From contig CASDPB010000128.1 in NCBI GenBank assembly GCA_949282305.1, positions 1-51,884 on the forward strand: a stretch of DNA of 51,884 nucleotides, in the 5' to 3' direction. Source of the DNA: an uncultured Lentisphaeria bacterium (GTDB lineage: Bacteria; Verrucomicrobiota; Lentisphaeria; Victivallales; UBA1829). Below are positions 9,166-42,551 of this stretch, one piece after another. The position numbers and the translations under genes are program-made. The notes beneath the pieces are model-generated. The model searched no databases. It was not told the origin of the DNA and saw only the letters and a program-made list of their open reading frames with translations. Each line of letters opens with the position of its first letter. Positions within the stretch are counted from its first letter, which is position 1.

Positions 9166-9198
9166 GGAAAACGCCCTTTCCTGATATGTTTTTTTATT

Positions 9199-9249
9199 AA
9201 TGCAACCGATTGCATTATGATAATATGATCTGAAAAAAAGGAAATGCAA
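9199..9249 (-). promoter_or_regulatory. Mannosidase promoter with LacI-type operator
   Basis: On the minus strand TTGCAT (9249-9244), an 18-bp spacer and TATTAT (9225-9220) form a promoter. Immediately downstream, 9199-9216 reads AATGCAACCGATTGCATT, a near-perfect dyad with the central CG and TGCAA half-sites typical of LacI-family operators. Its place over the transcription start fits direct repression by the LacI protein of the same operon. Confidence 0.72.
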
Positions 9250-11791: not shown

Positions 11792-12130
11792 TTCTTGGTT
11801 TCTGAAATAATAATCTGCTTTTCTTTCTTCTGCAAATTGATTTCCGGAAAAAATGCGTTCTTTATGGTTCCGGGTTGAGTGCAGCGGCGATTTTTTTCCG
11901 GTTCCCGGATTCTTTTTCCCGTATTTTTACGTTTTCGGGGCGTGTCAAGGGGAAAAATCCGCGAAAAAAATAATTTTTTTTACTTATTTGTCTTGTATTT
12001 GGAATGCAGGGCGTACATAGTAGCGCTGTAAATGTGTATCAGACATATTTTTTTGAGTATGTTTCATGCTGTTTTCAAAATTGGTTGGATTAATGTTAAC
12101 TTATACATATTAGAGATTTAGGAGATGCGA
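11792..12130. other. Gene-free region upstream of the TolC/giant-protein operon
   Basis: About 340 bp, A/T-rich, with T and A runs around 11950-11985. Several weak promoter-like hexamer pairs can be drawn, for example TTGGTT at 12081-12086 with TATACA at 12102-12107 and a 15-bp spacer, but none is convincing. It must contain the promoter of the following operon and of the leftward exported-protein gene. Confidence 0.4.
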
Positions 12131-13786: not shown

Positions 13787-13828
13787 GGAACATCTGGTAA
13801 TTACATAGTCAGAGAAGGAAGAAGGATC

Positions 13829-21709: not shown

Positions 21710-21753
21710 AAGGGAGACGACTTATGAAAGTATATGGAACAAAGGAGGAGAAA

Positions 21754-26367: not shown

Positions 26368-26371
26368 GATG

Positions 26372-29290
26372 TCATTTTTCCCCGGTTACAGAAAATATTG
26401 CCACATCGCCGAACGTTTCGGCAGTTGCCAGATTCACGCATATACATCCGTTTTCGATACGATATTTCTGGCCGGTCAGACACTTTTCAACCCGGACTCC
26501 TTCGGGCAGTTCTATCCGCTCTTCACCTCCGCGAGGTGTTCCCACGACGCCAAGAAGTCCGGCTCCGTAGAACAATCCGGAGCGTCCTTTGATCATCGGT
26601 TTCAAACCGGCTTCTTTTGCCATGTTCCTGAGCATCGGGATATTCAGCGCTCCCGGTGCGCCGATCCAGACTTTGGTGCGTTCCTTGTTCCGGTCCACCA
26701 GCATTCCCGCCAGTTCGGTGCCGTGATAACGTGCGATGACCTGTCCGGGAGAATCCGGGGCAGCCACCGGGGAGGTGCTCCACTCCATCCCGCTCCAGAT
26801 ATTGTAGAGTCCCAGCTGGCTTTTCGGCTGAAGTCCAGCAAACAGGGGATCGTCGGCGCAGATCTGCAGAACCTTGTTGGAAGTTCCCGGCATATCCGGC
26901 TTGATTTTGAATCCGGTGATTTTTGAAGGATTCTCCGGTGTTCCCGGTGCCGCCAGACCGGGTGACGTCATGTAGACCACCACACGGCCACCGCGCTCAA
27001 AACGATCCCGAATGGCGGCTCCCTGTTCCAGTGTCATCGTCAAAGGATTGAGGAAGATTGCGACACGGGGGAGTTCCAGATTCGGATTCAGAGCATCCTG
27101 TTGCAGGAAGAAGCGGACCGGAATGCCGACGAATTCCCATGCCGACGCCCAGTTCCATCCGAATTTCAGGAACAGACTTTCCACCGCGACGGAATTGAAA
27201 CTCCAGCCCAGCGTGTTCAACTGATTTGCGGCATCTTCATCAATGAATACGCCGATGTAATTTTCACCCAATGCGGGATAGTTTTTGACCGCCTTGGTCA
27301 GGGCCTGCCCTTCGGTCAGGATTTTCCGGGTGGAAGGATGGAAGAACCAGCCGCCGCCCATGTCCCAGAGGTGATAGCCGCCGCCGACGGCGAGCTGCGA
27401 GCCGAAACCGAGAAGAACCTGCCGGCGGAATTCCGCCTGACTCTTTGCATGGAAGGGATGATCGTAATCCAGCCATGCGTCAAGACCGGAACGCACGTTG
27501 CGCAGATCGAATTCCGCGACAGTGATTTTCCCATGGAAGATTGCTCCCGGCAGACCGCCGCGGGAGATGAAGTCGATGTCCGGCGAATTCAGCATCTCGA
27601 TAAAGCCGGTATGCTGGAGAGGATAGGATGCCGGCAGAGTCGGCCAGTAGGTTCCCGCCAGCAGACGTCCCCCGGATCCTTTTTTGAATGCCCGGGAGAA
27701 TGCGATCTGACGCCGTGTGTTGGCGACGGAAAGAAACTCATTGTAGTCGGCCGCCTGCGCATTGCGTCCATTGTACTCCATCAGCGGCGAGCGGGGGAGG
27801 TTCGGATCCGGACCGAACTGCCGCCGCCGCGAGGCATAGGACGGGAACTGCACTGTTTCAAATGTCACAGGGAATCCCCATGCCGCGGAAAGTGCCTTGG
27901 AATCCGAATGATACTTCAGGCGCAGGTAATTGCGGAACGCCTTCAGAGAGCCGGGGCTGTAATCGGCATACTCCGACTCCATGGAGAAAAACCATTGCGT
28001 ATCCGCCCCGCCGTGGATGTAGGCTCCGATCACAGCCTTTCCTTCCGGAGCGGTGGAAAGCCAGCGTCCGATTTCATACAGTGCCTTGCTTGCTCCGTCG
28101 CGGAAAACTTCGGAAGTGTTGCATGCTTCGTAAAATTCGCGTTCTCCCTGGGGTTCCTTGCCTCCGTACCGGTTGACCCGGCTCCACTCCGACACTGCCC
28201 GGTTGCCTTTTGCATCCGTATGAATGGCATCGGGATTGGCCTTCGCCCAGGCGGTCGGCAATGTGACGCGCAGATAGAGCATGATGTAGGCATTCGGCAC
28301 CCGGCGCAGGACTTCGCGAATTCCTTTTGCCAGGCGGTCAAAATCATATTTGTCTTCATCAATCCAGATGTTGAACGGCCAGCCGGAGGTATCGGCACGG
28401 GGGCCGAGGCAGACCGGAACATTGAAGATACGGAATCCCATCTCCTCCATGTTCTGCAGGTAGGAGCCGCTCAGGTTGAACGGTCCCCAGGCAAGAGTGA
28501 ACGGTTCTTCCTTGCCGTTGATGGTCAGTTTGATACGGTCGCCCGTCTTTTCGAGCTTCGGAACCGCCAGGGGGCGACGTTCCAGCAGCCGGATGACTTC
28601 CTCATCGGAAAGTTTCGGGACATCCGGTTCCGGGTTTGCGTTATTGATGCCGTAGGGAATATCCGGGCGTTTGGCGTTCACCCAGCGTTTTTCCACATTC
28701 CATTTCGGCTTCGGGTGTGCCGGCGATAATCCGGCGCGCACAATGCGGGCTTTCAGGGCATTTCCTCTGCATTCAAAAATCACGCGGAGCCCGACTGCCT
28801 GTTCCGGGACTGTGAAGGTGCGGTCCAGGCGGCGCGGACGGTCGGGCGCGGTGATGGAATTCACGTACATCTGATAATCCGGCGGATAAATATCCCACTG
28901 CGTGATGGTGTTTTTGTTTGCATCAAGCAGCTGGATGACCGGCATCATTTCCGCATCCGGAGCCAGTTCATCAATGAGGACGTCTATTGTCAGTCTCACC
29001 CGGTTGTCCGCACCGCGCTTCAGGGGAAGCGGCATGGTGTGGGATACTTGTCCGAAGAGCGGTTTCGGTCCGGAGTAGTTGCTTTGTCCGTTCCAGTTCA
29101 GATGCAGTCCTCCGGCATCGGCATGCCAGTCCACTTTCGGATACCCCGGAGTGTCCGCCCACTCCTTTGGAGAGTTGACAGGCAGCAGTTGTTCTGTGAC
29201 CGGTGCCGGCGGTTCCAGCCGTTGTTCCAGATTCTCCGCGGCAAACAGAGTTCCGCAGGACAGAAATAAGAGCGGAAGCAGTTTTTTCAT
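26372..29290 (-). CDS. Secreted GH42-like glycosidase homologue
   Basis: A 972-residue protein with a Sec signal (KKLLPLLFLSCGTLFAAE; ATG at 29290 with GGAGAC upstream). An N-terminal beta-sandwich (about 20-250) precedes a barrel-like part (FRIFNVPVCLGPRAD, NAYIMLYLRVTLPTAWAKAN, AVIGAYIHGGADTQWFF, ADYNEFLSVANTRRQIAFS) and a GH42-like trimerisation/GATase-like domain (VPRVAIFLNPLTM... plus GGRVVVYMTSPG in order). I do not see the Asn-Glu-Pro acid/base motif of classical GH42 at the expected strand, where HGGADTQW occurs instead. The enzyme is exported and probably acts on a galactose-containing glycan, with low certainty about specificity or even activity. Confidence 0.75.
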   Translation of the reverse strand: MKKLLPLLFLSCGTLFAAENLEQRLEPPAPVTEQLLPVNSPKEWADTPGYPKVDWHADAGGLHLNWNGQSNYSGPKPLFGQVSHTMPLPLKRGADNRVRLTIDVLIDELAPDAEMMPVIQLLDANKNTITQWDIYPPDYQMYVNSITAPDRPRRLDRTFTVPEQAVGLRVIFECRGNALKARIVRAGLSPAHPKPKWNVEKRWVNAKRPDIPYGINNANPEPDVPKLSDEEVIRLLERRPLAVPKLEKTGDRIKLTINGKEEPFTLAWGPFNLSGSYLQNMEEMGFRIFNVPVCLGPRADTSGWPFNIWIDEDKYDFDRLAKGIREVLRRVPNAYIMLYLRVTLPTAWAKANPDAIHTDAKGNRAVSEWSRVNRYGGKEPQGEREFYEACNTSEVFRDGASKALYEIGRWLSTAPEGKAVIGAYIHGGADTQWFFSMESEYADYSPGSLKAFRNYLRLKYHSDSKALSAAWGFPVTFETVQFPSYASRRRQFGPDPNLPRSPLMEYNGRNAQAADYNEFLSVANTRRQIAFSRAFKKGSGGRLLAGTYWPTLPASYPLQHTGFIEMLNSPDIDFISRGGLPGAIFHGKITVAEFDLRNVRSGLDAWLDYDHPFHAKSQAEFRRQVLLGFGSQLAVGGGYHLWDMGGGWFFHPSTRKILTEGQALTKAVKNYPALGENYIGVFIDEDAANQLNTLGWSFNSVAVESLFLKFGWNWASAWEFVGIPVRFFLQQDALNPNLELPRVAIFLNPLTMTLEQGAAIRDRFERGGRVVVYMTSPGLAAPGTPENPSKITGFKIKPDMPGTSNKVLQICADDPLFAGLQPKSQLGLYNIWSGMEWSTSPVAAPDSPGQVIARYHGTELAGMLVDRNKERTKVWIGAPGALNIPMLRNMAKEAGLKPMIKGRSGLFYGAGLLGVVGTPRGGEERIELPEGVRVEKCLTGQKYRIENGCICVNLATAETFGDVAIFSVTGEK

Positions 29291-29320
29291 TGTTGTCTCC
29301 ATAGATTTGTTAAACTTGAA

Positions 29321-30019
29321 TTACATACCGTAAAAGGCGTAGATGGTGTCTCCGTAGAGGATGTTGTACAAACCCGCGACAGTTGTTCTTTGCGTCGGGT
29401 CCGCATGAGTGTCCGCCCAGAGGACGTTCATTGAATGCAGGCGGTGAACGTGCAGTCCGCTGGAAGCGTCGCTGTTGTCCCCGACCAGGAAGACTTTGCA
29501 GCATGCGGTCAGAAAGGTCTTGCTCGGCTGCTTCAAATCAGAAAAGCCTTTGTAATAGGACGGTTTATTGTTGTTGGTCGTCCACAGATAGCGGTTGATG
29601 CCGTAACTGTTTCCCCAGGCTGTCTCTGCTTTGCTCCAGCTGATCGGGCATTGAAAACTTTTTATGCTGTGATCCGGGAAGTCGACCTGATTCGGAGACC
29701 AGTCACCCGGAAAATAGGTGAAGTCTTCAATCGGTCTTTTATTGCCAAGATATTGTGCCAGCTGCCCTTGCCAGTAGTTGGTGCGGTTCGACCACGGATT
29801 CCAGTCGATTGTCGGATACCGGTCATAGTCGGCGGCATAAACTGAAAAAGCGTTTCCCTGCTGTTTGAGATTGTTCATGCAGGCAACCGACTGAGCCGAA
29901 TTGCGGGCTTTGGCAAAGGCAGGAAGCAGCATACTGGCGAGAACTGCAATAATTGCAATCACGACGAGAAGCTCGATCAAGGTGAAAGTCTTTCCATACT
30001 TGTTTGTTTTTGTTTGCAT
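29321..30019 (-). CDS. Type II secretion/type IV pseudopilin-like protein
   Basis: A 232-residue protein with the prepilin N-terminal methylation segment [19 protein letters not shown], then a long amphipathic helix ([24 protein letters not shown]) and a soluble domain containing the common CPIS...GINRYLW and VLWADTHAD phrases of this Lentisphaerota/Planctomycete pilin group. The residue before the Phe is Thr, not the usual Gly. The ATG at 30019 starts 3 bp after the stop of the preceding GH42 gene. Its place inside a glycosidase operon suggests a surface role in glycan binding or enzyme export, which is inference. Confidence 0.88.
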
Positions 30020-30021
30020 GG

Positions 30022-32175
30022 TTATTGCCTTTCGTTCTTTGTTGTTCTTTTGTTTGTTTTCCATATCCTGACATCGGAAAAAGCGGCCATGAGCTCAGCA
30101 TCCGGTAAATCGAGCGAGTTCCATGTGCTGTCGTCCGGACGACAGGCACCATCGAACCGCCGGAATGCAAAGCGCAGTTCCGCGCCGTTCCGATCCAGCA
30201 TAATCCGTTCGGCAATCCCCGGATGGTTCCAGTGACCGATGGCGCGGCACCCGGACTGCTGCAGCAGCCGATCCAGCAACGTCCGCCATCCGGTCGGATC
30301 ATCCCGGTCTTCCGGAACGCCCTGCGCCTGGAAAATATCGTTCCAGATGCTTTCCCGGTCTTTCCAGGCCCCTAAGCCGATGGAGGCGCCGACTGCAATG
30401 ATCCGGCCTTGCCCGAACTGCCGTCTGACGGCGGCCGGAGCCTGGTTGTCGCACCATCTGCCGATCACTTCGACGTCGGGAGTGACTTCATATTCGAGGC
30501 GTTCAAAGTGTGCGCGCAAATGAGGAATTCCGTCGATTTCCAGCTCCCATGTGCGGTCGTTCAGCTGGAGACACCGGCGTTCCCGAAAACCGAACTTTTC
30601 TGCCAGTCCCCCGCCGGGTTTGACGGGATGCAGCATGGTATTGTCCTGGCGCCGTCCGAATCCGGCATCGACAATCAGCGTGCCGCCCCGGCGCACATAC
30701 TCGGAAAGGAGCTGCGCACGTTCCGCATTCACAATGGAAAAGCCGGGAAGAATGACCGCGGAATACTTGAAAATGTCATTTTCCCACCGTGCGGGCGACA
30801 GGAAGTCCACGGCGTAATTTGACTGCCAGACCAGATTGTAAGTGCCCTGCAGATCCCCTTTGAACGGATAGCCGCCGGCGACACGGGAACGCAGCATGTA
30901 GCGTCCGGTGTAATCCGCATTGTAAGGAAGTGTGAACTCCAGCCTGTTGACAAGGTCTCCTTCCAGATCGTAGACGACCGCAACGTCCGCGGCAGGCACC
31001 CGCCATGTCGGGATTTCCGATTCCCATTCGCGTATTTTGCGCAGCGATTCGGCTACACTCTGTGTGGTTTCATTGGGAGAGCCGTCCAGTTCGACGAGTC
31101 CGGCGTCGTTGATTTCCACTCCCAGGCGCTCTTTTTTGTATTGCCAGAAGCACAAACCGTCGGCGCCGCCCGCCACCGTGAGCCAGATCCATTGCTGCAC
31201 CAGTCCGGGGGGGACTTCAGGTAAAAACTGTCCCATGCTCGGATACAATTCATAAACCGAGAACTGACCGCGGCCGACAAAGCGCATCCAGTCGATCAGC
31301 ATGAACGCCTGATATTCCGGCATTGCCCGGAGCGGGAAACTGGTGCCGTACAAATCCGTTACGTCATTCATCATGACGTCGTCGCTAATGTCCGTCACAG
31401 GATCCTGGAAGATTCCGGCATTTCCCACATGGCTGATGACCGCGCGTTCCGGATCCAGCCGCCGCAGCAGCGCGGTGACTTGCGCCACTCTGTCGCGAAC
31501 CCGGTCGGCTCCCCACTGACGCCAGAGAAACATTTCCGCAAAATCGCTGGTGTCGCGCGCCGCATCCACCTGCTCAAAATCCCCCCAGCACTTTCCGAAC
31601 TTCCGGTTCAGATTGTCAATCGTGCCGAAACGCTCCTTCAACCATTTCCGGTAGGAGACTACGGAGTGTTCGCAGGCACACTCTCCCATGGGACGACAGC
31701 GCGGTTCATTCCAGGCATGGTAAAAAGCCAGTGCCGGATGATTCCGGTACCGTTTCACCAGAGTTTCAGTGAAACGCAGTCCGGCGCGCATGACTTCCGG
31801 ATGGTCGAAGCAGGGAATCCAGCCGCCGACGAAAAACGCGGCATTGGCGATCGGCCAGATACGGTTGCCGCGGATGTCAATCCGGTAGCCTTTGTAGCGC
31901 TGAAAAATATATTCCGGAGCGCATTCCAGGCAGAGTTGCAGGATGACCTGGCAACCGGCACTCTGCGCTTCCTCCATGAAAGCATCCAGGTCTTCCCAGA
32001 AATATTCGTTTTCATGCCGTTCATGCCAGCGCCAGAAAACCCGTACCTGGAGAAGGTGCAGACCGATTTCCCTGCAGCGGCGCAGATCTTCTTTCCACTC
32101 CTCCTGAGGCGGACTGGGCGCCCGGTAATAGTGGACGGCAGTCCAGAAATGATTTTGCAGTTCTTTCTTGTTCAT
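30022..32175 (-). CDS. GH42-family beta-galactosidase-like enzyme
   Basis: A 717-residue enzyme without signal peptide, so probably cytoplasmic. The barrel opens with [22 protein letters not shown]; the acid/base motif is N156-E157-P158 in [10 protein letters not shown], and a later [15 protein letters not shown] with [22 protein letters not shown] carries the candidate nucleophile region. The central GATase-like trimerisation domain is visible ([33 protein letters not shown]). Its ATG overlaps the stop of the upstream GntR gene (ATGTATGA region; 4 bp), so translation is coupled. It should release beta-linked galactose or a related sugar. Exact substrate is unknown. Confidence 0.87.
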
Positions 32176-33326
32176 ACATGAATTCCTTTTGTGAGATAGT
32201 TGATTCTGCACAGCATCTGGGGTGGAAGAAACACAGCTTTGGGGATAAAGGTGGACGCGGTGATCAGTTCGACGGCGCACTGCCCCATTTTCCTGAAATT
32301 GATGTCAATGGTGCTGAAATGGCGGTCCCTGCTGATCTCCGGAAAAATGTTGTCATACCCGAACAGCAGAAGAGATTCCAGCCTGTCCGCCTCCCGGAAA
32401 CGTTCCCATACGCCTTCGGCAATTACGTCGTTGAGGACGAACACCGCGGAGAGCGGCGCTGCCGCCTTCAGCAGTCTGCCGGCTGTCTGATATCCGATTC
32501 CGCGCAGGTCGTTCAGTGTCCGGATCGGACCGTTTTCCCAGTATTCAGACAATTGAACTTCGGGGTCATAGCCGTTTTCCGTCAGCGCCATCCGGAAACC
32601 TGCCGCGCGTTTGCGGTAGGTTTCAATAGGCAGCTTGACTCCGATCAGGGTGAAGGAAGACGGCCGGAGCGCCGTCATTTGAATCCCCGCCTGATAGCCG
32701 CCGGAAAAATCATCATGAAAAATTCCATAAACATTCCGCGGTGTTTTTTCAAACGAGAAAGCATAGTCGTTGAAGTAAATGAACCGCAGCTGCGGATAGA
32801 TTTGCGCCACGCGGATGTCCTCTTCAAAGCCGGACGCCTCAAGCATCAACACTCCGGTGATCTCAATGCGGTCGTTGTTCCGGTATATTTCAATGGTTTC
32901 CACCGGGTCCCCGGAGAAAAACAGGAGATCGACGCCATGTTCCCGGCATCCGGTCTGTATGCCCTGCAGCAAATGGACTCGAACATCGTCATGGTTGAGG
33001 ACGTTTGCCGGATTCCTGTGATAAAGCATGCAGACTTTTTTTCTCCGGCACTGCTGTGCGGGGGAGGGGCCACCGGCTACGAACGTCCCCTTTTTGGGGT
33101 GACGGACGCAGACCCGCTCACGCAACAGTTCGTTTAAACCGGAATTGGCTGTTTTGACACTGACTCCCGCGAGACGTGCAAGCGTTTTTATGTCTGGCAG
33201 ACGTGAACCCGGAGGCAGTTTCTGACTGCAGATATGAGCTTTCAGCTGCTCCTTGAACTGGAGATATAAAGACTCCGGGGCGTTGCTGTTGATATGAAAC
33301 GGAATTTTAGCGGAAGACCTGTCCAT
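32172..33326 (-). CDS. GntR-family regulator with LacI-type ligand domain
   Basis: A 384-residue regulator. The N-terminal GntR winged helix (LYLQFKEQLKAHICSQKLPP... DIKTLARLAGVSVKTANSG, then the wing HPKKGTFVAGG) is followed by a periplasmic-binding-protein-like sensor (VCMLYHRNPANVL ... GVLMLEASGF ... AVFVLNDVIAEGVWER). I chose the ATG at 33326 because the consensus promoter just upstream places the transcription start near 33354, making an ATG at 33353 essentially leaderless. First gene of a five-gene leftward operon that ends with the 688-residue protein. It probably senses a sugar from its glycan. Confidence 0.9.
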   Translation of the reverse strand: MDRSSAKIPFHINSNAPESLYLQFKEQLKAHICSQKLPPGSRLPDIKTLARLAGVSVKTANSGLNELLRERVCVRHPKKGTFVAGGPSPAQQCRRKKVCMLYHRNPANVLNHDDVRVHLLQGIQTGCREHGVDLLFFSGDPVETIEIYRNNDRIEITGVLMLEASGFEEDIRVAQIYPQLRFIYFNDYAFSFEKTPRNVYGIFHDDFSGGYQAGIQMTALRPSSFTLIGVKLPIETYRKRAAGFRMALTENGYDPEVQLSEYWENGPIRTLNDLRGIGYQTAGRLLKAAAPLSAVFVLNDVIAEGVWERFREADRLESLLLFGYDNIFPEISRDRHFSTIDINFRKMGQCAVELITASTFIPKAVFLPPQMLCRINYLTKGIHV

Positions 33327-33360
33327 GTTATATCCGGGTTTGAAAGTTTTCATACTTTTA

Positions 33361-33388
33361 ATTATATGCAATTTTATTTCAATGTCAA
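33361..33388 (-). promoter_or_regulatory. Consensus promoter of the leftward glycosidase operon
   Basis: On the minus strand TTGACA (33388-33383), a 16-bp spacer and TATAAT (33366-33361) match both sigma-70 hexamers perfectly. A promoter this strong normally needs repression, which fits autoregulation by the GntR protein it drives. Confidence 0.75.
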
Positions 33389-33536: not shown

Positions 33537-33628
33537 TTGACCGGATAAAATCCGGAGATTCAGAAAGAAAAATGAAAAAATGTGGAAATGCTCTTGTTTT
33601 TGAATCAAGTGGTATTATATTGTATAAC
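33537..33628 (+). promoter_or_regulatory. Promoter region of the kinase/glycyl-radical-enzyme operon
   Basis: TTGAAT (33600-33605), a 17-bp spacer and TATAAC (33623-33628) form a plausible promoter 38 bp before the kinase start; TTGTTT/TATATT at 33594/33616 is an alternative. Upstream at 33537-33558 is an inverted repeat, TTGACCGGATAAAATCCGG then AGA, whose close relative occurs at 35006-35026 before the activase gene. Confidence 0.45.
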
Positions 33629-33666
33629 CAGATGAAAAGAAAAACAAGTTTACGGGAGAGGTGAAA

Positions 33667-34989
33667 ATGGCTCTGCTGCTGGGCATTGACATGGGAACAA
33701 CCAAAAGTGCCTGTGTGATTGTCGATTCGGATCGGCGCACCCTGCTGGCATGTGAAAGTATGGCGCATCAGGCTGCCGCGGGCGGTGGAATTCAGGATGC
33801 TCGTCGCCATGTCGAGGTTGTCCGTCGGCTGATCGGCAGACTGCCGGAATCGCTGCGCGGGGAGGTGAAGTGTGTCGGGGTTGCGGGACAGATGCACGGA
33901 GTCGTTTTATGGTCGCGTCATGCGGTGTCACCGCTCTTCACCTGGCAAAGTGTGACGCGGGACCTGGAACATTTTCAAACGGTTGCTCCGGATTTGCGGC
34001 ACGGTTTTGGCGTCGCGACCTTGGCGCAGCTGGCGTCGGAGCGGAAACTTGACGCTTACGAGTATGCGGGAACGATTCATGATTACCTTGTCTGGCAGCT
34101 GACCGGATGCCCGGGGAAGCCTGTCATGGACTACAGTGACGCGGCGAGCTGGGGGACGTATCGTCTGCGGGAGAATTGCTTCGACGGGGCATCGTGGGCG
34201 CGGCTTGGCATTCCGGAGCGTCTGATGCCGCAGGTGGTGCCGGTCTGCAGCAATGCCGGAGTGGTCGCCGGTGCCTGGGGGATTCCCCGCGGGATTCCAG
34301 TGATGGCTGCTGTCGGTGACAACCAGGCAAGTGTTGCCGCGACTGCGGAAGACCCCTCGGATGAAATTTATCTGACGCTCGGCACAGGTGCGCAGCTTTC
34401 CATTGTGGCGGACCGGCTGGCGGAGCAGGTGGAGTGCCGTCCGTATCTGGATGGAAAATATCTTGCCGTGGGGACTCCTCTGTGCGGCGGCGCCGCCTGG
34501 GCATGGCTTCAGCAGCATGTGAAAGCATGGCTGAACGCGCTGGGATGTGCCCCCATTCCGGATGCGGAGCTTTACGACCGGATCGACGCGCTGGCTGCGG
34601 CGGCGCTGCAGGACGATGACTTGCCGGCAGTGCATCCTCATTTCCTCGGGGAGCGCTCTGATCCCGGAAAGCGCGGCGTCATCGAACATCTGACTCTGAC
34701 GAACTTTACTCCGGGAAAGTTTGCCGCCGCCCTGGCGATCGGAATTGTCGAAAATCTGCAGGGGATGCTGCCCCGGGAGTTATGGCAGGATCGCAAGCGT
34801 CTGCTGGTTTCCGGCAATGCCATCCGGAAAACCAGGGCTCTGCAGGCGGCATGTGTCCGGTGTTTCGGAATTGAGCCGATCCCGGTCAGCGGACGGGAGG
34901 AAGCCGCATGCGGTGCCGCGCTGTTAAGCGGAAGATTATTGAAGGAGACCTCGGACGGACGGGAGACGGAAATTACGGAAAAGAATTGA
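33667..34989 (+). CDS. FGGY-family carbohydrate kinase
   Basis: A 440-residue sugar kinase. The first phosphate loop LLGIDMGTTKSACVIVD is at residues 4-20, followed by GVAGQMHGVVLW (a phrase seen in sedoheptulokinase-like and xylulokinase-like members), the central AVGDNQASVAATAEDP...LTLGTGAQLS, and a C-terminal GGAAWAW/LVSGNAIRKT region. It should phosphorylate a pentulose, heptulose or polyol; specificity cannot be read. The ATG at 33667 has GGAGAGG six bases upstream. First gene of the rightward operon with a glycyl radical enzyme and an isomerase. Confidence 0.9.
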   Translation: MALLLGIDMGTTKSACVIVDSDRRTLLACESMAHQAAAGGGIQDARRHVEVVRRLIGRLPESLRGEVKCVGVAGQMHGVVLWSRHAVSPLFTWQSVTRDLEHFQTVAPDLRHGFGVATLAQLASERKLDAYEYAGTIHDYLVWQLTGCPGKPVMDYSDAASWGTYRLRENCFDGASWARLGIPERLMPQVVPVCSNAGVVAGAWGIPRGIPVMAAVGDNQASVAATAEDPSDEIYLTLGTGAQLSIVADRLAEQVECRPYLDGKYLAVGTPLCGGAAWAWLQQHVKAWLNALGCAPIPDAELYDRIDALAAAALQDDDLPAVHPHFLGERSDPGKRGVIEHLTLTNFTPGKFAAALAIGIVENLQGMLPRELWQDRKRLLVSGNAIRKTRALQAACVRCFGIEPIPVSGREEAACGAALLSGRLLKETSDGRETEITEKN

Positions 34990-35005
34990 AGTCGCCTGAG
35001 ATGGA

Positions 35006-35026
35006 TTGACCGGTGAACACCGGAGA
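35006..35026. promoter_or_regulatory. Inverted repeat before the activase gene, similar to one before the kinase
   Basis: TTGACCGGTGAACACCGG then AGA, with arms CCGGTG/CACCGG (35010-35023). The shared outer parts with 33537-33558 suggest a common operator for one of the two GntR proteins, but CCGGA is frequent in this DNA, so chance is a real alternative. Confidence 0.35.
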
Positions 35027-35069
35027 CTGCCGGGGAAATGTTGAACTGCATAAACACTGTGTTTGAACT

Positions 35070-35927
35070 ATGAGAATATTTGCACAAGGCTGGAGTGATA
35101 ATAAAGATGCGCCGGGACAGCGTTGGATTGTCTATCTGAAAGGATGCAATTTCCGCTGTCTGTATTGCGGCAATCCTGAGAGTATGCGTTCAGAACCGGA
35201 AGTGATGTTTTACCGCGACCGGGTAAAGGCTGTCGCCCCGGAGCAGTGCTGCAGCCATGCCATGGAGTGCGCTTCCTGCAGGACTTTCGAGTGCGTGAAG
35301 AAGTGGAGGCATCCCGCATTTGAACTGGCGGGGGAGGAGATGCCGGCAGCCGTGCTGGCGGAAAAAGCGCAGCGGATGCGACATATGATTGACGGTGTGA
35401 CTTTTGGCGGGGGCGAACCTACTTTGCAGATCCATGAGCTTCTGGAGGTGCTGACGGCGCTTCGGAACCTGGGAATCAACTCCGCGGTCGAGAGCAACGC
35501 CGGAACCGAAACATATGCAGACATCATAGGGAAGGTGGATTATCTGATTTCGGATCTGAAGGCAGGAACCTGCGGCGGATACCGGCGTCTGACCGGGTCA
35601 GGCGATGAAACCGTGCGGCGCAACTTGACTCTGGCTGCGCGGAAACAGCGGGAACTCCTGATCCGGATTCCGCTGATTCCGGGTTACAACATGCAGGATG
35701 AGGAACTGGAGGCCATGCGGGATTTTCTTGCGGGACTGCGCCGTTTCCGCGAGGAGTTGAAAGTTCAGACCTTGCGGCTTCATCATGCAGGCGCGGTAAA
35801 ATACCGGGCGTTGCGCCGTCCGTACGCATTGGAAGGTGTGGAACCGCCGTCGCCGGAGCAGCAGAAAAAGTTTGACCGGATGTTGGCGGATGCCGGGCTC
35901 ACGGTATTGGATTTTCATCAAAGTTGA
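35070..35927 (+). CDS. Radical SAM glycyl-radical-enzyme activating enzyme
   Basis: A 285-residue activase that should use a [4Fe-4S] cluster and S-adenosylmethionine to install the glycyl radical on the enzyme encoded next. The cluster motif is C26-x3-C30-x2-C33 (GCNFRCLYC). A short Cys-rich insert (residues 60-75: CCSHAMECASCRTFEC) may bind one auxiliary cluster, fewer cysteines than the eight-Cys insert of many relatives. GVTFGGGEPTLQ and ISDLKAG are the glycine-rich and DxK motifs of the family. There is little ribosome binding site before the ATG. The gene ends 33 bp before the glycyl radical enzyme. Confidence 0.92.
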   Translation: MRIFAQGWSDNKDAPGQRWIVYLKGCNFRCLYCGNPESMRSEPEVMFYRDRVKAVAPEQCCSHAMECASCRTFECVKKWRHPAFELAGEEMPAAVLAEKAQRMRHMIDGVTFGGGEPTLQIHELLEVLTALRNLGINSAVESNAGTETYADIIGKVDYLISDLKAGTCGGYRRLTGSGDETVRRNLTLAARKQRELLIRIPLIPGYNMQDEELEAMRDFLAGLRRFREELKVQTLRLHHAGAVKYRALRRPYALEGVEPPSPEQQKKFDRMLADAGLTVLDFHQS

Positions 35928-35960
35928 CATAATGAAATCTTTAAGGGAAAGAGAGGGACG

Positions 35961-38279
35961 ATGAAGAACAATATTTATCAGGCGGGCGTGGAGAAGCTGC
36001 GCCGGTACAAGCAGAACCAGAAGGTGGTCAACACCTGGTTCTATGTGCAGGAACATAAGAAACAGATCATTGAGTCAATGCGCCGCGAAGGGAAGGTTGT
36101 CGAATCTCCTGCGGGGCAGGCGGAAATTCTGTGCCGTCTGACGGAGGTCATTCCGGTTGAGATTCCTCCGGGAAGTGTTTTTGCCGGTTCACAGGATGTG
36201 GCGTTTTCTCCCTCCTATGCGTTGATTAATCCGGCGTTCAAAGTGGAGACCTTTGAAGGATATTGCGACCCGTGCGCGATCTATGATGATGTTGTGCTCA
36301 CCGGCGACCTGACGCGGGAACGGGTTGACGCGGTGCGCGTCTTTTTTGAAAATGACGGTTATACAAAAGACCTGTATGCCCATTACAGGAGATTTCAGAC
36401 GGAAACCTGCGAAGTCGCATTTTTTATGGAGCCGGTGACGGGGCATACCATTCCTGATGTCCGTCCGTTTCTGGCGAAAGGAGTCGCGGCGATTCAGGCT
36501 GAAACCCGCGGTGAATACGGCGCTTCCATGCGCTGCGCTCTGAATGCGGTTCTGATTTTAGCGGAACGTTACCGCAAATTGGCGCTGGCGCAGGCAGCCG
36601 AGGCGGAGGATGCGGAGGAAAAACAGCGTCTGACGGAGATGGCGGCACGTCTGGAACGGGTTCCGCTGGAAGGAGCCGAAACACTGCCGGAAGCAATGCA
36701 GAGCTTTATCCTGCTGTGGGAGATCATGGTGCTGGAGCAGGCGCCGAACCCCTATGCGTTTTCCGTGGGCAATATGGACCGTATCTTTGCGCCGTATCTG
36801 GGAGATACTCCGTATGAGGATGCGGTTGCCTATTTCCGGCATGTACTGGCGTTCTTTATCGTGGGCAGCCGCGGCTGGGCGATTTCCCAGAATATCATGG
36901 TGGGAGGCAGGGACACGGCGCATCATGATCTGAGCTCTCCTGCAACCGATGCCGTTCTGGATGCGTTTTTTGCCAGCAATGATCCGCAGCCGGCGCTGTC
37001 CGCCAAAATTCACGCGGACACCCCCGATGTGTTTTTCGAGAAGCTTGGCCGTTTTTTTGCGACGCCCGGGCATTCTACGCCGTCGTTGTTCAATGATGAT
37101 TCAATGTTTGCCATGCTGCGGCAATGCGGAATCGCGGAAGAAGATTTGCCGGATTATTCGATTGCCGGCTGCCAGGAGCCGCTGATTATGGGCAAGAGCT
37201 CCTTGAACACCACCAACACCTGGCTGAATTTGGGGAAGATTCTCGAATTGACCTTGAATGACGGGCATTCCCTGCTGTCTGGCAGGAAACTGGCTCCGGG
37301 ATGGAGTGAATTCGGCTATGCCGATATTACCGCGGTGTATGCCGATCTGGAAAATGCCTTTTACAAAATGCTGGATCACTTTCTCAGCCGGATGGAACAG
37401 GCGGGGAACGGCTGTACTGAAATTCTGGGCAAATACAAGCCGGTGCCGTTCACCTCGGCGATGCACGACAGTTTGTATACAAACCGTGATTTACGCGATC
37501 CGGCGCATCCGGGAGTCCGCTATAACGGCAGCGGCTGCCTGATCCACGGACTTGGAGTTGTGGCGGATTCGCTGAACGCGGTAAAAGCCGCGCTTCCGCT
37601 GTTCGGAGCCGAAAAAATACGCAAGGCACTTCAGGCGGACTTCAAAGGATACGAGGATGTGCAGGAGTTTCTGGACCAGGTGGAGAAATACGGCAATGAC
37701 ATTGCAGAAGCGGATGCCGCCGCAATCCGCATCGCTGAAACGGTCAGCGCAAAAGTCACGGCTCTGCGCAATTCCGCCGGCAATCCTTATCTGGCGGACT
37801 TTTCCACTCCCAGCACCCATCTGCTGTACGGATACTGGGTCGGTGCCACGCCGGACGGCCGCCATGCGCGTAAAATGCTGGGGTATGGAGTGGATCCGCG
37901 GCCCGAAGCAACCCGCGCTCAGCTGCAGAGCCGGATTTTGTCGGTGCGCAAACTGCCGTTCCACCGGATGACCGGAGGATATGCTTCCCATATTGGAATT
38001 CCATGTGTGGGGAGCGCTCTGTCCGACCCCGCGGTATGGATGCGCGACCGGGTGATCCGGCCGCTGTTCCACCGCGGAGACTCCGAGGAGGCGCCGTATT
38101 ATGTCTACTTCAATCTGGACAGCACCGAACATCTGCGCAAGATTTTGAAGGATCCGAAGACCTACGCCCCGAGCGGCGTTTACATCATGCGGATCCACGG
38201 CACGTTCGTAAACTTCCTGGATTTGTCCCCGGCGATTCAGGAGGATATTATTCAACGGCTGGAGGCCAGCGCCGTATGA
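35961..38279 (+). CDS. Glycyl radical enzyme of unknown substrate (PFL-like, dehydratase/lyase type)
   Basis: A 772-residue glycyl radical enzyme. The active-site loop GCQEP carries the thiyl Cys404 and a Glu406 of the kind used as general base in dehydratase-type members. The radical glycine is Gly747 in MRIHGTFVNF, 25 residues from the end as usual, but the normal RVxGY sequence is altered. The preceding C-terminal segment (DGRHARKMLGYGVDPRPE) also departs from PFL, glycerol dehydratase and choline lyase patterns. Placed between a sugar kinase and a hexose-phosphate-isomerase homologue, it probably acts on a sugar, polyol or sugar acid. I would not name a reaction. RBS AAAGAGAGGG before the ATG. 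Confidence 0.9.
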   Translation: MKNNIYQAGVEKLRRYKQNQKVVNTWFYVQEHKKQIIESMRREGKVVESPAGQAEILCRLTEVIPVEIPPGSVFAGSQDVAFSPSYALINPAFKVETFEGYCDPCAIYDDVVLTGDLTRERVDAVRVFFENDGYTKDLYAHYRRFQTETCEVAFFMEPVTGHTIPDVRPFLAKGVAAIQAETRGEYGASMRCALNAVLILAERYRKLALAQAAEAEDAEEKQRLTEMAARLERVPLEGAETLPEAMQSFILLWEIMVLEQAPNPYAFSVGNMDRIFAPYLGDTPYEDAVAYFRHVLAFFIVGSRGWAISQNIMVGGRDTAHHDLSSPATDAVLDAFFASNDPQPALSAKIHADTPDVFFEKLGRFFATPGHSTPSLFNDDSMFAMLRQCGIAEEDLPDYSIAGCQEPLIMGKSSLNTTNTWLNLGKILELTLNDGHSLLSGRKLAPGWSEFGYADITAVYADLENAFYKMLDHFLSRMEQAGNGCTEILGKYKPVPFTSAMHDSLYTNRDLRDPAHPGVRYNGSGCLIHGLGVVADSLNAVKAALPLFGAEKIRKALQADFKGYEDVQEFLDQVEKYGNDIAEADAAAIRIAETVSAKVTALRNSAGNPYLADFSTPSTHLLYGYWVGATPDGRHARKMLGYGVDPRPEATRAQLQSRILSVRKLPFHRMTGGYASHIGIPCVGSALSDPAVWMRDRVIRPLFHRGDSEEAPYYVYFNLDSTEHLRKILKDPKTYAPSGVYIMRIHGTFVNFLDLSPAIQEDIIQRLEASAV

Positions 38280-39268
38280 GGGAGGAAGACGGCAGCAAGA
38301 CTGTTGCTTTCCAAAGCCGGATTTTCAAGGAGATCCTGTACGGCAATTATGCACCCGGCGACCGTCTGCCGGGCGAGCGGGAAACCGCCGAGGCGTGCGG
38401 CATCAGCCGCATTACCGTGCGCCGCGCTTATGAAAAATTGGAAAAGAGCGGAATTCTGGAACGGCGGCAGGGCAGCGGCACTTATGTTGCGCAGCATCAT
38501 GGAGCGAATCGGAATTCCGGGAATCTGATCGCCCTGCTGAGCAGTGTCGGCGAGCTGTTTTCCCTGGACTTCATCCGTGCCATGGAAAAAGAGGTTTCCG
38601 CGCATGGCGATTTGCTGGTGCTGCGCCTGACGGATGATTCTCCGGAACTGGAAGAGGCCGCAGCGATTGAGCTGGTCGGGAATGGCGTCAACAATTTGGT
38701 GATTTGGCCTTCCGGCCGGGGATTCCGTGCGGAAACTTTTGCCCGGCTGCGGGTTCTGGGAACGAATATGGTTTTTTTCGACCGCATGATTCCGGGAGAT
38801 TATGCCGATTACGTGGGACTGGACAACCGGGACGCCTTGAAGCAGTTGTTTCTGCGGGCGGGAAATGTCCGTTCTCCGCTTTTCATCAGCCATGCGGAGG
38901 CGGCGCATGATTCGGATCACGCCAGAGAATCTGCGTTTGAGTATGAGTGCCAGCTTCGGAATATTGCCGGAACTGTGCTGCGTGTCTCTCCGGAAGAACC
39001 GCTCAGACTGCCTCCGGAGATCCTGGAAAAAGCGGACGTGATTTTCGCCGTGAATGATGCGATGGCTCTTCGGGTGCTTCCGTTTGCCGGAGAGAAAACA
39101 GTTTTTGGAATTGACGGTCTGAGCCGTGAGATTGTCAGCTACCGGCAGCCGATGCGGCTGCTGGCGCAGAAGGTAATAAAATTATTGTACAAACAGCGTG
39201 ACGGCGCGGGTGAGTGGCGCCCCGCTAAAGTGTTCATCAAAGGAGAAATCTGTGAAAAATTATCATGA
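38276..39268 (+). CDS. GntR-family regulator with LacI-like sensor domain
   Basis: A 330-residue regulator. The ATG overlaps the stop of the glycyl radical enzyme gene (ATGA), so translation is coupled. The winged helix spans about residues 8-72 (FKEILYGNYAPGDRLPGERE, ISRITVRRAYEKLEKSGILE, GSGTYV), followed by a periplasmic-binding-protein-like sensor (LIALLSSVGELFSLDFIRAM ... NMVFFDRMIPGDYADYVGLD ... VIFAVNDAMALRVLPF). Being embedded in the operon, it probably measures an internal sugar or pathway intermediate and adjusts the same transcript. It is a different lineage from the GntR protein at 32172. Confidence 0.9.
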   Translation: MREEDGSKTVAFQSRIFKEILYGNYAPGDRLPGERETAEACGISRITVRRAYEKLEKSGILERRQGSGTYVAQHHGANRNSGNLIALLSSVGELFSLDFIRAMEKEVSAHGDLLVLRLTDDSPELEEAAAIELVGNGVNNLVIWPSGRGFRAETFARLRVLGTNMVFFDRMIPGDYADYVGLDNRDALKQLFLRAGNVRSPLFISHAEAAHDSDHARESAFEYECQLRNIAGTVLRVSPEEPLRLPPEILEKADVIFAVNDAMALRVLPFAGEKTVFGIDGLSREIVSYRQPMRLLAQKVIKLLYKQRDGAGEWRPAKVFIKGEICEKLS

Positions 39269-40307
39269 CCCTCTGTTTTTCCAGCCCAATCGTGTCTGGC
39301 GCTGTTATCTGGGCGGAAGATTGCTGAGCAGGATGATGGGAGAAAAAGAAGAAGCGGATTCCCTGTTTCCGGAAAACTGGCTGGGTTCCGTGACTCCCGC
39401 CAGAAACGGCGTGCATCAGACTTCGGAGCAGGAGGGCATTTCCCGTCTGCGCTCCGGAGAACTGTTGTCCGATCTGCTGCGGAAGGATGGAAAGACGATT
39501 CTGGGCAAGGACAGGAGTGAGCTTGGCGTGTTGTGCAAATTCCTGGATTCCGCCGTCCGGCTCCCGTTTCAATGTCATCCGGACCGGGATTTTGCCCGTA
39601 AATACTGTCAAAGCGAATATGGAAAGACCGAGAGCTGGTTTATTCTTGACACGAGGCAGGTGAATGGTGAGGATCCCTACATCATGCTGGGATTCAAGCC
39701 CGGCATTGATCGCGGGGCGTTCCGGCAGGCGGTATTGGAACAGGATATTCCGCAAGTGCTGTCGATGATGCACAAAATCAAAGTCAAACCGGGGGATAAT
39801 TTTTTCATTCCCGGACGGCTGCCGCATGCAATCGGAAGCGGGGTGCTGATGCTCGAAGTGCAGGAGCCGACCGATCTGGTGGTGCAGCCGGAACGGAAAA
39901 TCGGAGATATTACGTTGAGTGATTTTGACATGTGGCAGAATTTGACTGTGGAACAGGGACTCGACTGCTTTGAATATCGCGGCCGCACATTGGAGGAGGT
40001 AATGCGGGAATTTGCCGTTCGTCCGGGAAAGAAGAACGGACCGGTTGAGACATTGGTGGATTCCGGATATACGGACTGCTTTCAGGTCGCGGTGATGAAA
40101 CTGCTGCCGGGTGAAACGTATGACTGCCGGTTCTCGTCTGATTGGCAGCTGGCGGTTGTGACAGGCGGCGGAGGAAATGTGACGGCGGCGGAAAAGCAGA
40201 CGGTGCGTCCCGGAGATTGTTTTCTGATTCCGAATCCTGTGCGCAATCTGACTTTCTCTGCCGGAGAAAAGGGACTGGTTGTCTATTTGATCAATGCGGC
40301 ACACTAG
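39252..40307 (+). CDS. Class I mannose-6-phosphate isomerase-like protein
   Basis: A 351-residue zinc cupin isomerase. All metal ligands of class I phosphomannose isomerase are in place: Gln and His in LPFQCHPD, Glu in GKTESWFIL, and the late His in FIPGRLPHAIGSG, followed by LEVQEPTDLV. The start is a GTG at 39252 with AAAGGAG upstream, inside the end of the GntR gene. The family interconverts mannose-6-phosphate and fructose-6-phosphate, but an N-terminal PENWLGSVTPARNG variant and its operon suggest it may act on another sugar phosphate made by the FGGY kinase. Last gene of the rightward operon. Confidence 0.85.
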   Translation: MKNYHDPLFFQPNRVWRCYLGGRLLSRMMGEKEEADSLFPENWLGSVTPARNGVHQTSEQEGISRLRSGELLSDLLRKDGKTILGKDRSELGVLCKFLDSAVRLPFQCHPDRDFARKYCQSEYGKTESWFILDTRQVNGEDPYIMLGFKPGIDRGAFRQAVLEQDIPQVLSMMHKIKVKPGDNFFIPGRLPHAIGSGVLMLEVQEPTDLVVQPERKIGDITLSDFDMWQNLTVEQGLDCFEYRGRTLEEVMREFAVRPGKKNGPVETLVDSGYTDCFQVAVMKLLPGETYDCRFSSDWQLAVVTGGGGNVTAAEKQTVRPGDCFLIPNPVRNLTFSAGEKGLVVYLINAAH

Positions 40308-40350: not shown

Positions 40351-41148
40351 TCAGTCTTGCGGGGTATGCCGGCGGCGGTATTGCGCCGGTGCGGCTCCGT
40401 AGAGCTTTTTGAAGCGCCGGGAAAAGTGAAAACGGTCTTTGACGCCGATCAGATCGCAGATTTCATCAATGGAGAACGCACGCGATTCCAGCAGCTGCGC
40501 GGCGTAACTGTAGCGCAGCTGGAGCAGATACTGGTATGGCGTGCTTCCGGTGATTTCGCGGAACTGCCGCAGAAAGGCATTGGGCGCCATTCTCACACGG
40601 GCGGCAAGCTGGTCGATGCTGATGTCGTTCCGCATGTTTTCACGCAGATAATCACAGATTGAAGCGATCCGTTTATCGGAATTGAGCTCGGAAAGCGCCT
40701 CCTGGGGAAGCATTGCCATGGCATTGGCGGCGAGTGCGATTGCAAGGAGTTTGACATTGGCGCGGTTGTTGTCCTCTTTGAATTCCAGCATGGGACGCAG
40801 ACGTGAAATCAGGATTTTCATGTCGTCGCTGATCCGGAGTTCGTTGCAGAGGTAGTCGGGATTTCCCGCAAGCTGCGTCATTTCAAAATGCAGATAAAGC
40901 TGAACCGGTTCCCCCGTGCACCATGTTTCAAGATCGCAGTTGGGTGGCAGCAGATAGATATGATCCGGTTTGAGTTCTACCTTGCGGCGCCCGAGATAGA
41001 CCCCCGCTCCGTAATCGTCATGATAATAGAGCCGCCAGTAATGTCCGCCGAGGATCACGGAGTTCCAGAATTTTCCCAGGCGCACGTATCCCACGGAATC
41101 CATGCGGAGCTGAGGGTATTCCAGAATTGAGACATTGGTTTTATTCAT
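40351..41148 (-). CDS. AraC-family transcriptional regulator
   Basis: A 265-residue regulator with an N-terminal cupin-like sensor (HYWRLYYHDDYGAGVYLGRR, IYLLPPNCD) and a C-terminal double helix-turn-helix (ISIDQLAARVRMAPNAFLRQ, then FSIDEICDLIGVKDRFHFSRRFKKLYG). It is divergent from the alpha-L-fucosidase gene. Two exact TTCATAAGAT repeats in the spacer (41165-41174, 41189-41198) are a good candidate binding site, so it probably activates the fucosidase in response to a sugar. The ribosome binding site before the ATG is poor. Confidence 0.9.
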   Translation of the reverse strand: MNKTNVSILEYPQLRMDSVGYVRLGKFWNSVILGGHYWRLYYHDDYGAGVYLGRRKVELKPDHIYLLPPNCDLETWCTGEPVQLYLHFEMTQLAGNPDYLCNELRISDDMKILISRLRPMLEFKEDNNRANVKLLAIALAANAMAMLPQEALSELNSDKRIASICDYLRENMRNDISIDQLAARVRMAPNAFLRQFREITGSTPYQYLLQLRYSYAAQLLESRAFSIDEICDLIGVKDRFHFSRRFKKLYGAAPAQYRRRHTPQD

Positions 41149-41208: not shown

Positions 41209-41261
41209 TTCCATAGTTGCAAGCCGGAAACGTTCAAAAAACAAAAAAAGGAAAATGGGAA

Positions 41262-42551
41262 ATGGCTGATTTCGGAAAAGGCGACACTGGCTGGTTTACG
41301 CACGACAGGTTCGGGATGTTCATCCACTGGGGGCTCTATTCCATGCCCGGACGGCATGAATGGGTCCGCAATTACGAGGAAATTCCGAACGAGGACTACG
41401 AAAAATATTTTGAGCAGTTCAACCCTGATCTTTTCAATCCGAAGGAATGGGCGAAGGCCGCGCGCGAAGCGGGAATGAAATATTTTGTCGTTACGACGAA
41501 GCACCATGAAGGCTTCTGCATGTGGGATTCAAAATACACGGATTACAAAATCACGAACACGCCGTGCGGACGCGATCTGCTCCGCGAGATTGTCGATGCC
41601 TTCCGCGCCGAAGGGCTCAAGGTCGGTTTTTATCATTCGCTGATTGACTGGCATCACCCCGATTTCACCGTCGATGACGTGCATCCTCTCCGCAACAGGC
41701 CGGACCGTGCGAAACTGAACGAAGGCCGTGACATGGCGCGCTACCGCGAATATCTCCGCAATCAGGTGCACGAACTCCTGACGGAATTCGGGAAAATCAG
41801 CATCATCTGGTTTGATTTCTCGTATCCGCAGTGGGGCAAAGACGGCAAGGGGCATGCCGACTGGGATTCCGAGGGACTCGTCAGGATGATCCGGGAGCTT
41901 CAGCCGGGGATCATGATTAACAACCGTCTCGACCTCCCCGGCGGAGGCGATGTCATCACCCCGGAACAGAACACCCCGGACGAACCCGTGACGGACGAAC
42001 ACGGCTGCCCGGTCGTCTGGGAAGGCTGCCAGACATTCTCCGGTTCATGGGGATACCACCGCGATGAACTGACTTGGAAATCATCCAAGCAGTGCATTGA
42101 TATGCTGATCAATCACGTCTGCCGCAACGGAAACCTGCTGATGAACGTCGGACCGACAAGCCGCGGCTATATTGATTCCCGTGCGATGGAGCGCCTGAAA
42201 GCCTATGCCGAATGGATGAAGTATCATTCCCGTTCCATTTACGGATGCGGCATGGCGGAGGGACTGACTGAACCGCGCGACTGCCGCTATACTTACAATC
42301 GGGAGACAAACCGCCTTTACCTTCACATCATGAACTGGCCGTTCAAGCATATTCATCTGAAGGGACTCTCCGGCAAGGTGAAATACGCGCAGTTCCTCCA
42401 TGACGGCAGTGAAGTGAAAATGCGCGACAGCGCCGAAGTGCAGGTGCATTCCTCACTGAGCAGCAAGACTCCCGCAGGAGCCGTCACGGTCGATCTTCCC
42501 GTAGTGAAGCCGGCAGTGGAAGTTCCTGTGATTGAACTGATTCTGAAATAA
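41262..42551 (+). CDS. GH29 alpha-L-fucosidase, cytoplasmic
   Basis: A 429-residue fucosidase with the GH29 pattern: FTHDRFGMFIHWGLYSMPGR, YFVVTTKHHEGFCMWDS, GFYHSLIDWHHPDF and the nucleophile Asp in IIWFDFSYPQW, followed by WGYHRDE and NLLMNVGPTSRG. No signal peptide, so it should act on imported fucosylated oligosaccharides. The C-terminal beta-sandwich is short. ATG at 41262; AAGG and GGGAA precede it. It is controlled, by inference, by the divergent AraC protein. Confidence 0.94.
   Translation: MADFGKGDTGWFTHDRFGMFIHWGLYSMPGRHEWVRNYEEIPNEDYEKYFEQFNPDLFNPKEWAKAAREAGMKYFVVTTKHHEGFCMWDSKYTDYKITNTPCGRDLLREIVDAFRAEGLKVGFYHSLIDWHHPDFTVDDVHPLRNRPDRAKLNEGRDMARYREYLRNQVHELLTEFGKISIIWFDFSYPQWGKDGKGHADWDSEGLVRMIRELQPGIMINNRLDLPGGGDVITPEQNTPDEPVTDEHGCPVVWEGCQTFSGSWGYHRDELTWKSSKQCIDMLINHVCRNGNLLMNVGPTSRGYIDSRAMERLKAYAEWMKYHSRSIYGCGMAEGLTEPRDCRYTYNRETNRLYLHIMNWPFKHIHLKGLSGKVKYAQFLHDGSEVKMRDSAEVQVHSSLSSKTPAGAVTVDLPVVKPAVEVPVIELILK

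Follow-up and report, generated by a model that had tools for sequence, protein, structure and literature searches.

What does a glycyl radical enzyme (GRE) do in a sugar operon that also encodes a kinase and an isomerase? The question is raised by five genes in contig CASDPB010000128.1 of an uncultured Lentisphaeria bacterium (assembly GCA_949282305.1), of which we analyzed positions 1 to 51,884; this whole stretch of 51,884 nucleotides is referred to as the window. GREs catalyze some of the hardest anaerobic reactions, and new subfamilies have repeatedly exposed unknown gut chemistry. We found that the predicted GRE of the window is a member of a conserved, previously unclassified subfamily outside every curated GRE family. 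We propose, tentatively and at somewhat less than an even chance, that the five genes form an anaerobic sugar-catabolic module built on this subfamily, in which elimination by the GRE would be followed by an isomerase and then by an FGGY kinase. The carrier appears to be a gut-type anaerobe, and the operon points to an undescribed, oxygen-free breakdown of sugars.

Layout of the cassette

The initial annotation had described a closely spaced kinase, activase, GRE, regulator and isomerase, and had placed Cys404, Glu406 and Gly747 in the GRE. All five open reading frames were confirmed on the plus strand, in that order (33667-40307), and the three residues stand where it had put them:

33667..34989, +, FGGY-family carbohydrate kinase, 440 amino acids, with motifs DxGTT, GQMHG and GDNQAS (FGGY_N, 66.7 bits)
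35070..35927, +, radical SAM glycyl-radical activating enzyme, 285 amino acids, with C26-x3-C30-x2-C33 and more Cys at 60-75 (Radical_SAM, 60.3 bits)
35961..38279, +, GRE of a new subfamily, 772 amino acids (PF02901, 305.7 bits; predicted fold; tree)
37170..37178, +, Cys404-Gln405-Glu406, the catalytic Cys with an eliminase-type CXE motif (invariant in 34 homologues)
38190..38204, +, glycyl radical loop R744-I-H-G747-T748 in place of the canonical RVxGY (RIHGT in 34 of 34 homologues)
38276..39268, +, GntR-type transcription regulator, 330 amino acids, a winged helix with an effector domain lacking a family assignment (PF00392, 62.2 bits)
39252..40307, +, divergent aldose-ketose isomerase of the class I mannose-6-phosphate isomerase family, here called PMI-like (TIGR00218, 59.7 bits)

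The sequence-based domain assignments are secure for every gene except the isomerase, a divergent member of its family. Gaps of 80 bases (kinase to activase) and 33 bases (activase to GRE) are followed by an ATGA shared between the GRE stop and the GntR start and by a 17-base overlap between the GntR and PMI-like genes, and this spacing fits a single transcript for all five. The kinase ATG is preceded by gggagaggtgaaa, and the PMI-like gene starts with GTG. No inverted repeat of at least 7 bases with a spacer below 10 was detected in the divergent promoter region, and Rfam and tRNA scans of the window returned no matches.

The GRE forms a separate subfamily

We compared the window GRE with known GREs by domain models, structure and phylogeny. 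Pfam matched the PFL-like domain PF02901 and gave no match to the Gly_radical domain PF01228; a PF01228 search of the enzyme's own genome missed it likewise, because the family's glycyl loop reads RIHGT and departs from RVxGY. The best curated NCBIfam model, TIGR01774 (PFL2-3/glycerol dehydratase), reached 215 bits where its cut-off is 678; all others stayed far below theirs (CutC, 131/1050; HypD, 179/1100; HpsG, 161/1000; indoleacetate, 94/1100; aryl decarboxylase models also far under threshold). The pyruvate formate-lyase (PFL) model TIGR01255 gave 49 of 994 bits, and the active site, G403-C404, has no Cys-Cys motif.

The fold is nonetheless complete. An AlphaFold model (predicted local distance difference test [pLDDT], 80; predicted template-modeling score, 0.87; low pLDDT in the beta-8 and Gly-loop regions) matched PDB GREs at Z 25-33 across 630-716 residues, with propanediol and glycerol dehydratases best (Z 32-33). 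A PDB profile search likewise placed glycerol dehydratase 1r8w (277 bits) and 1,2-propanediol dehydratase 9rco on top, and identities of 20-24% set the enzyme at roughly the same distance from every eliminase. In a maximum-likelihood tree that took in dehydratases, CutC, HypD, YbiW, PflD, PFL and GREs of the window's class, 28 family rows formed one clade (support 100/100, stem of 2.66 changes per site), whose placement among the other GREs is unsettled, since long branches meet there. The check proposed at the outset, whether the enzyme falls inside a characterized cluster, was therefore answered in the negative.

These results bear on one alternative, namely, that the operon is unusual but its enzyme belongs to a known GRE type, such as PFL or the B12-independent dehydratases of glycerol or 1,2-propanediol. 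The top matches to 1r8w and 9rco would suit this reading; the 24% identity, the curated scores, the long stem, the missing PFL motif and differing pocket residues (below) largely refute it, and we regard it as very unlikely. A literature search retrieved no paper joining glycyl radical with FGGY, and anhydroglucitol GREs were covered only in a review. The same genome holds two further, shorter GREs (L001, G000:C96; L002, G000:C118), which have a normal RVSGF loop and also score below curated cut-offs.

A rebuilt radical loop and a second invariant cysteine

Across 34 full-length homologues from two phyla, C404, the CXE motif and G747 are invariant, and the loop reads RIHGT in every one; controls all read RV[AS]G[YFW]. 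His746 thus stands beside the radical Gly, and Thr748 stands where a near-universal aromatic residue follows it. The family therefore breaks the RVxGY rule used to recognize glycyl-radical domains. At positions constant in reference GREs, H677, Y716, H746, T748, C526 and H529, among others, are changed and invariant in the family; C526 is a second invariant Cys, in a Y-N-x-S-G strand.

Such residues raise the alternative that the GRE is no eliminase and instead epimerizes or rearranges a sugar via C526 and His746, supplying the isomerase and kinase with mannose or fructose. C526, H529, H620, H677 and H746 are invariant in the 34 homologues and mostly absent from other GREs, the downstream generic sugar genes also occur without a GRE, and dedicated aldolases are mostly lacking, all of which would be expected. 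The eliminase-typical Glu of the CXE motif is invariant too, however, where C526 lies with respect to the active site is uncertain, and we know of no GRE epimerase; we consider this reading quite improbable.

The cassette recurs in two phyla

The GRE family (53-70% identity) was present in 19 of 198 genomes of the window's class, where the next best other GRE reached ~32%, in 4 more genomes of its phylum, and in a Clostridia metagenome-assembled genome (47% identity), whose class gave 14 carriers among 391 genomes. Searching genome contigs with the single protein gave L033 as the only true relative, besides one YbiW/PflD-like GRE and one CutC, and an order-level search around locus L105 gave no additional relatives.

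We then examined 38 loci, some in Clostridia and the others in the class and phylum of the window. The activase adjoins the GRE at 34 of them and the FGGY kinase does so at 35, with the exceptions mostly at contig ends. Within the window's class the genes are arranged in two ways; their association has thus outlasted rearrangement. Using kinase and PMI-like models built from GRE loci, which carry some bias to GRE genomes and still detected non-GRE matches at 1e-112 and beyond, we found the FGGY clade in 19/19 GRE genomes of the class versus 9/179 others (Fisher p = 5e-20) and the PMI-like family in 14/19 versus 25/179 (p = 9e-8). The recurrence in two arrangements over 38 loci, together with the kinase co-occurrence, is far beyond chance. 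The GntR regulator is found in 19/38 loci; Clostridia have nearby AraC or ROK-type regulators instead.

Several neighbors were noted in passing. Uroporphyrinogen-decarboxylase/MtaA-like genes lie near GRE loci (L039, 12540-13781, by hidden Markov model; L097, L099 and L101 in Clostridia, by eye), and Clostridia loci also have an EamA-type transporter. At L143 (G129:C23), a clade FGGY kinase lies beside an activase in a genome where no family GRE was found, a possible case of GRE loss or divergence.

Kinase, activase and isomerase partners

The kinase matched FGGY_N well above the gathering score of 28.8, all equivalog models stayed below cut-off (XylB, 88 bits versus 380), and its clade is apart from E. 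coli XylB, LyxK, RhaB, FucK, GlpK and AraB in the tree. The activase scored 160 bits with the glycyl-radical-activating subfamily model TIGR02494 (cut-off, 174). For the isomerase, the TIGR00218 (manA) score compares with a cut-off of 116.2, and the nearest PDB entry is 1qwr. Its zinc ligands had been called complete, and the Q-x-H, E and H residues are indeed invariant in 15 PMI-like homologues. A separate ManA homologue was found in 11/11 genomes tested, so the cassette isomerase is an extra copy.

An isomerase is present at 27/38 loci, where three unrelated families fill the same slot by non-orthologous replacement: PMI-like (23 loci), D-lyxose/D-mannose isomerase (3; L045, L047 and L107) and AraA-like (1; L081). 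Aldoses are, as a standard, processed by an isomerase followed by a kinase of the FGGY family (XylA-XylB, RhaA-RhaB). Clade kinases also occur without the GRE, paired with a PMI-like gene in genomes G060 and G017 and directly after a glycoside hydrolase family 32 (GH32) gene at L140. Isomerase and kinase thus make up an independent module, which plausibly serves mannose or fructose and onto which the GRE was joined. A second PMI-like paralogue group without GRE (L147-L150) adjoins a 630- to 660-amino-acid protein with an N-terminal NYWASHAA motif; the one scanned gave a marginal GH2 barrel match, and the protein may be an uncharacterized glycosidase.

The pocket favors a neutral sugar

We mapped pocket positions by sequence alignment onto residues described for HypD, CutC and IslA (PMC7077986, PMC8473560). 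The CXE motif on the Cys loop defines GRE eliminases (PMC8473560), and that of the window GRE aligns with those of DhaB1, HypD, the CutC-type L035, YbiW and PflD. This supports a predicted CXE eliminase, acting by water loss or C-O cleavage, and not a C-C lyase. The initial annotation had allowed for either the anaerobic removal of water or the cleavage of a carbon bond; of these, elimination gained support, and C-C cleavage found none.

Besides CXE, the family keeps the beta-1 His (HypD His160; invariant) and a Thr at the CutC Thr502 position. The beta-3 aromatic residue that packs against substrate in eliminases (Phe340 in HypD, Phe395 in CutC and Trp374 in IslA; PMC8473560, PMC7077986) is Ser309 in 34/34 homologues, and beta-6 carries W421 at the CutC Tyr506/HypD Tyr450 position. 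The anion-binding positions (IslA R189 and R678; HypD R156) hold Pro/Gln158 and Asp613 in the family (P158 and D613 in the window), and residue 265, at the site of HypD Asp278 and glycerol dehydratase His281, is Tyr or Phe. The pocket thus seems widened and Trp-lined, suited to a larger, neutral, ring-stacking substrate. This width and the lack of known anion-binding residues favor an unphosphorylated, hexose-derived substrate, on which the GRE would act before the kinase.

The reverse order would have the FGGY kinase phosphorylate a sugar or anhydrosugar and the GRE open or dehydrate the sugar phosphate, giving a deoxyketose phosphate for an aldolase. The closest known sugar GREs follow such logic (PMC12441222; PDB 8id7, 8id0): E. 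coli YbiW/PflD open 1,5-anhydroglucitol-6-P/1,5-anhydromannitol-6-P to 1-deoxyfructose-6-P (PMC12441222). PflD, with Gly, also lacks the beta-3 aromatic residue, T417 is common to the window GRE and YbiW, and aldolases occur at L045, L047 and L105. The mapped anion-binding positions are nevertheless empty, the PRK09983 (PflD) model gave 124 versus 1109 bits, and no phosphotransferase system (PTS) genes were noticed at the loci. According to Ma et al. in 2024, FSA reportedly cleaves 1-deoxyfructose-6-P, yet no FSA/TalC protein was found in 22/31 GRE genomes, the window's own (96% complete) included. Moreover, at the positions of FsaA Gln59 and Tyr131, the aldolase of L105 carries Glu and Phe; we take these residues to be of the transaldolase type, and its reading as an FSA was revised accordingly. 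A direct copy of the YbiW/PflD pathway is unlikely because of these absences and residues, and an FSA-dependent 1-deoxyfructose route was dropped as the main model. Phosphorylation before the GRE step is, overall, a rather unlikely order.

The proposed route and what weighs against it

In the order that we prefer, with the GRE ahead of the kinase, the activase would install a radical on Gly747, from which it would pass to Cys404; the residues, the fold and a matched activase were observed. The GRE would then carry out a CXE-type radical elimination, with a neutral sugar or polyol derived from a hexose as its substrate. Its product, or the sugar released, would pass to a mannose-type aldose-to-ketose isomerase (PMI-like, lyxose/mannose isomerase or AraA-like), and the dedicated FGGY kinase would yield a ketose phosphate, which would enter glycolysis or undergo aldol cleavage. 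We infer the last two steps from gene order and the non-orthologous isomerase replacement, and a pathway sugar is assumed to act through the GntR-type regulator.

Several observations weigh against this route. Aldolases for a deoxy product occur at 3 loci only (FBA class II at L045 and L047; TalC at L105), four Clostridia loci with room for an isomerase have none nearby (L102, L103, L104 and L106), and the operon has no dedicated transporter. The non-GRE members of the FGGY clade suggest that the kinase may serve an ordinary sugar that has no link to what the GRE produces. In addition, R304, K349 and H351, which vary little or not at all in the family, could make contact with an anion, and the pocket was read from aligned positions, not model coordinates.

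A wider formulation, in which a GRE with the rebuilt loop and second invariant Cys would catalyze a sugar reaction new to GREs, either epimerization or rearrangement or radical C-O cleavage of an unphosphorylated hexose, feeding the mannose-isomerase/FGGY-kinase pair, is doubtful; there is a small chance of new chemistry. If its substrates are neutral hexoses, the GRE would open a new way into oxygen-free sugar catabolism. The subfamily is conserved in two phyla, and its compact cassette, which includes a kinase and an isomerase, lends itself to testing.

Glycosidases and other surroundings

Does the sugar come from a glycan? Mannosidase-type GH genes stand at 7/38 loci (GH38 at L039, L052, L102 and L104; GH2 with PF22666 at L049, L051 and L053), and GH32 adjoins L079 and L080. 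GH genes are common in these genomes and are not conserved between loci. The leftward divergent operon of the window (24301-33371, minus strand), which had been described as encoding glycosidases, holds a GntR plus periplasmic-binding-type regulator, a GH42, a DUF1559 pseudopilin and two large proteins. One clear GH42 (30022-32280) upholds that description in part; 26372-29302 is borderline, at 20.5 bits with a cut-off of 21, and Pfam gave no match for 24301-26367. These glycosidases are weak evidence, because they are not conserved at other loci. That a divergent GRE sits in a sugar operon is supported, and a glycan origin of the proposed sugar or polyol substrate has circumstantial backing in the mannosidase-type genes and the interchangeable mannose-type isomerases.

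Varied exo-glycosidases near different loci (GH38, GH2, GH42 and GH32) could also mean that two arms share one glycoside: isomerase and sugar kinase would take the hexose of a mannosyl-, galactosyl- or fructosyl-polyol, and the GRE the other part (for example, glycerol or a different polyol). L107, with an FGGY and a PfkB fructokinase-like gene, would agree. Against this, the diol-binding residues H281, S282, Y339 and D447 of glycerol dehydratase (DhaB1 numbering) are replaced by Y265, A266, S309 and T418 in the window GRE, no aldehyde/alcohol dehydrogenase or microcompartment genes accompany the GRE, and the GH genes vary as described. Such a division of labor seems improbable.

Other features were observed around the cassette:

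5119-6087, minus strand, LacI regulator adjacent to the next gene
6091-9249, minus strand, GH38 alpha-mannosidase, ~24 kb from the GRE cassette
12125-23916, plus strand, 2626-amino-acid protein with DUF4347, Chlamydia-PMP repeats and a beta-helix stretch
40351-41148, minus strand, divergent AraC regulator
41217-42551, plus strand, GH29 alpha-L-fucosidase just downstream of the cassette

Two TolC/OEP-like genes, one of them with a Sel1-repeat fusion, flank the gene for the 2626-amino-acid protein, which resembles a giant surface protein secreted through an export channel of its own. The arrangement of regulator, pseudopilin and glycosidase in the leftward divergent operon was seen again at L041 and L043.

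Comparison with known systems

YbiW/PflD share with the window cassette the GRE fold, CXE, the beta-1 His and a sugar context with a phosphorylation step, and PflD shares the missing beta-3 aromatic residue. Identity is, however, ~20%, and the window cassette has RIHGT instead of RVAGY, an FGGY kinase and isomerase instead of a PTS, and no FSA. The B12-independent glycerol and 1,2-propanediol dehydratases (1r8w, 9rco and 5i2g) are the best PDB matches and keep the Cys, Glu and beta-1 His, whereas the window GRE has its diol contacts replaced, falls in a separate clade and is without dehydrogenase or microcompartment genes. CutC, HypD and IslA have in common with it the CXE, the Thr at the CutC Thr502 position and the beta-6 aromatic residue, but their substrate residues are not matched, and all models scored below cut-off. 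Finally, XylAB, RhaAB, FucIK and AraAB also pair an aldose-ketose isomerase with an FGGY ketose kinase, to which an aldolase is sometimes added; the window cassette differs from them in its distinct kinase clade, its inserted GRE and activase, and its PMI-like cupin isomerase.

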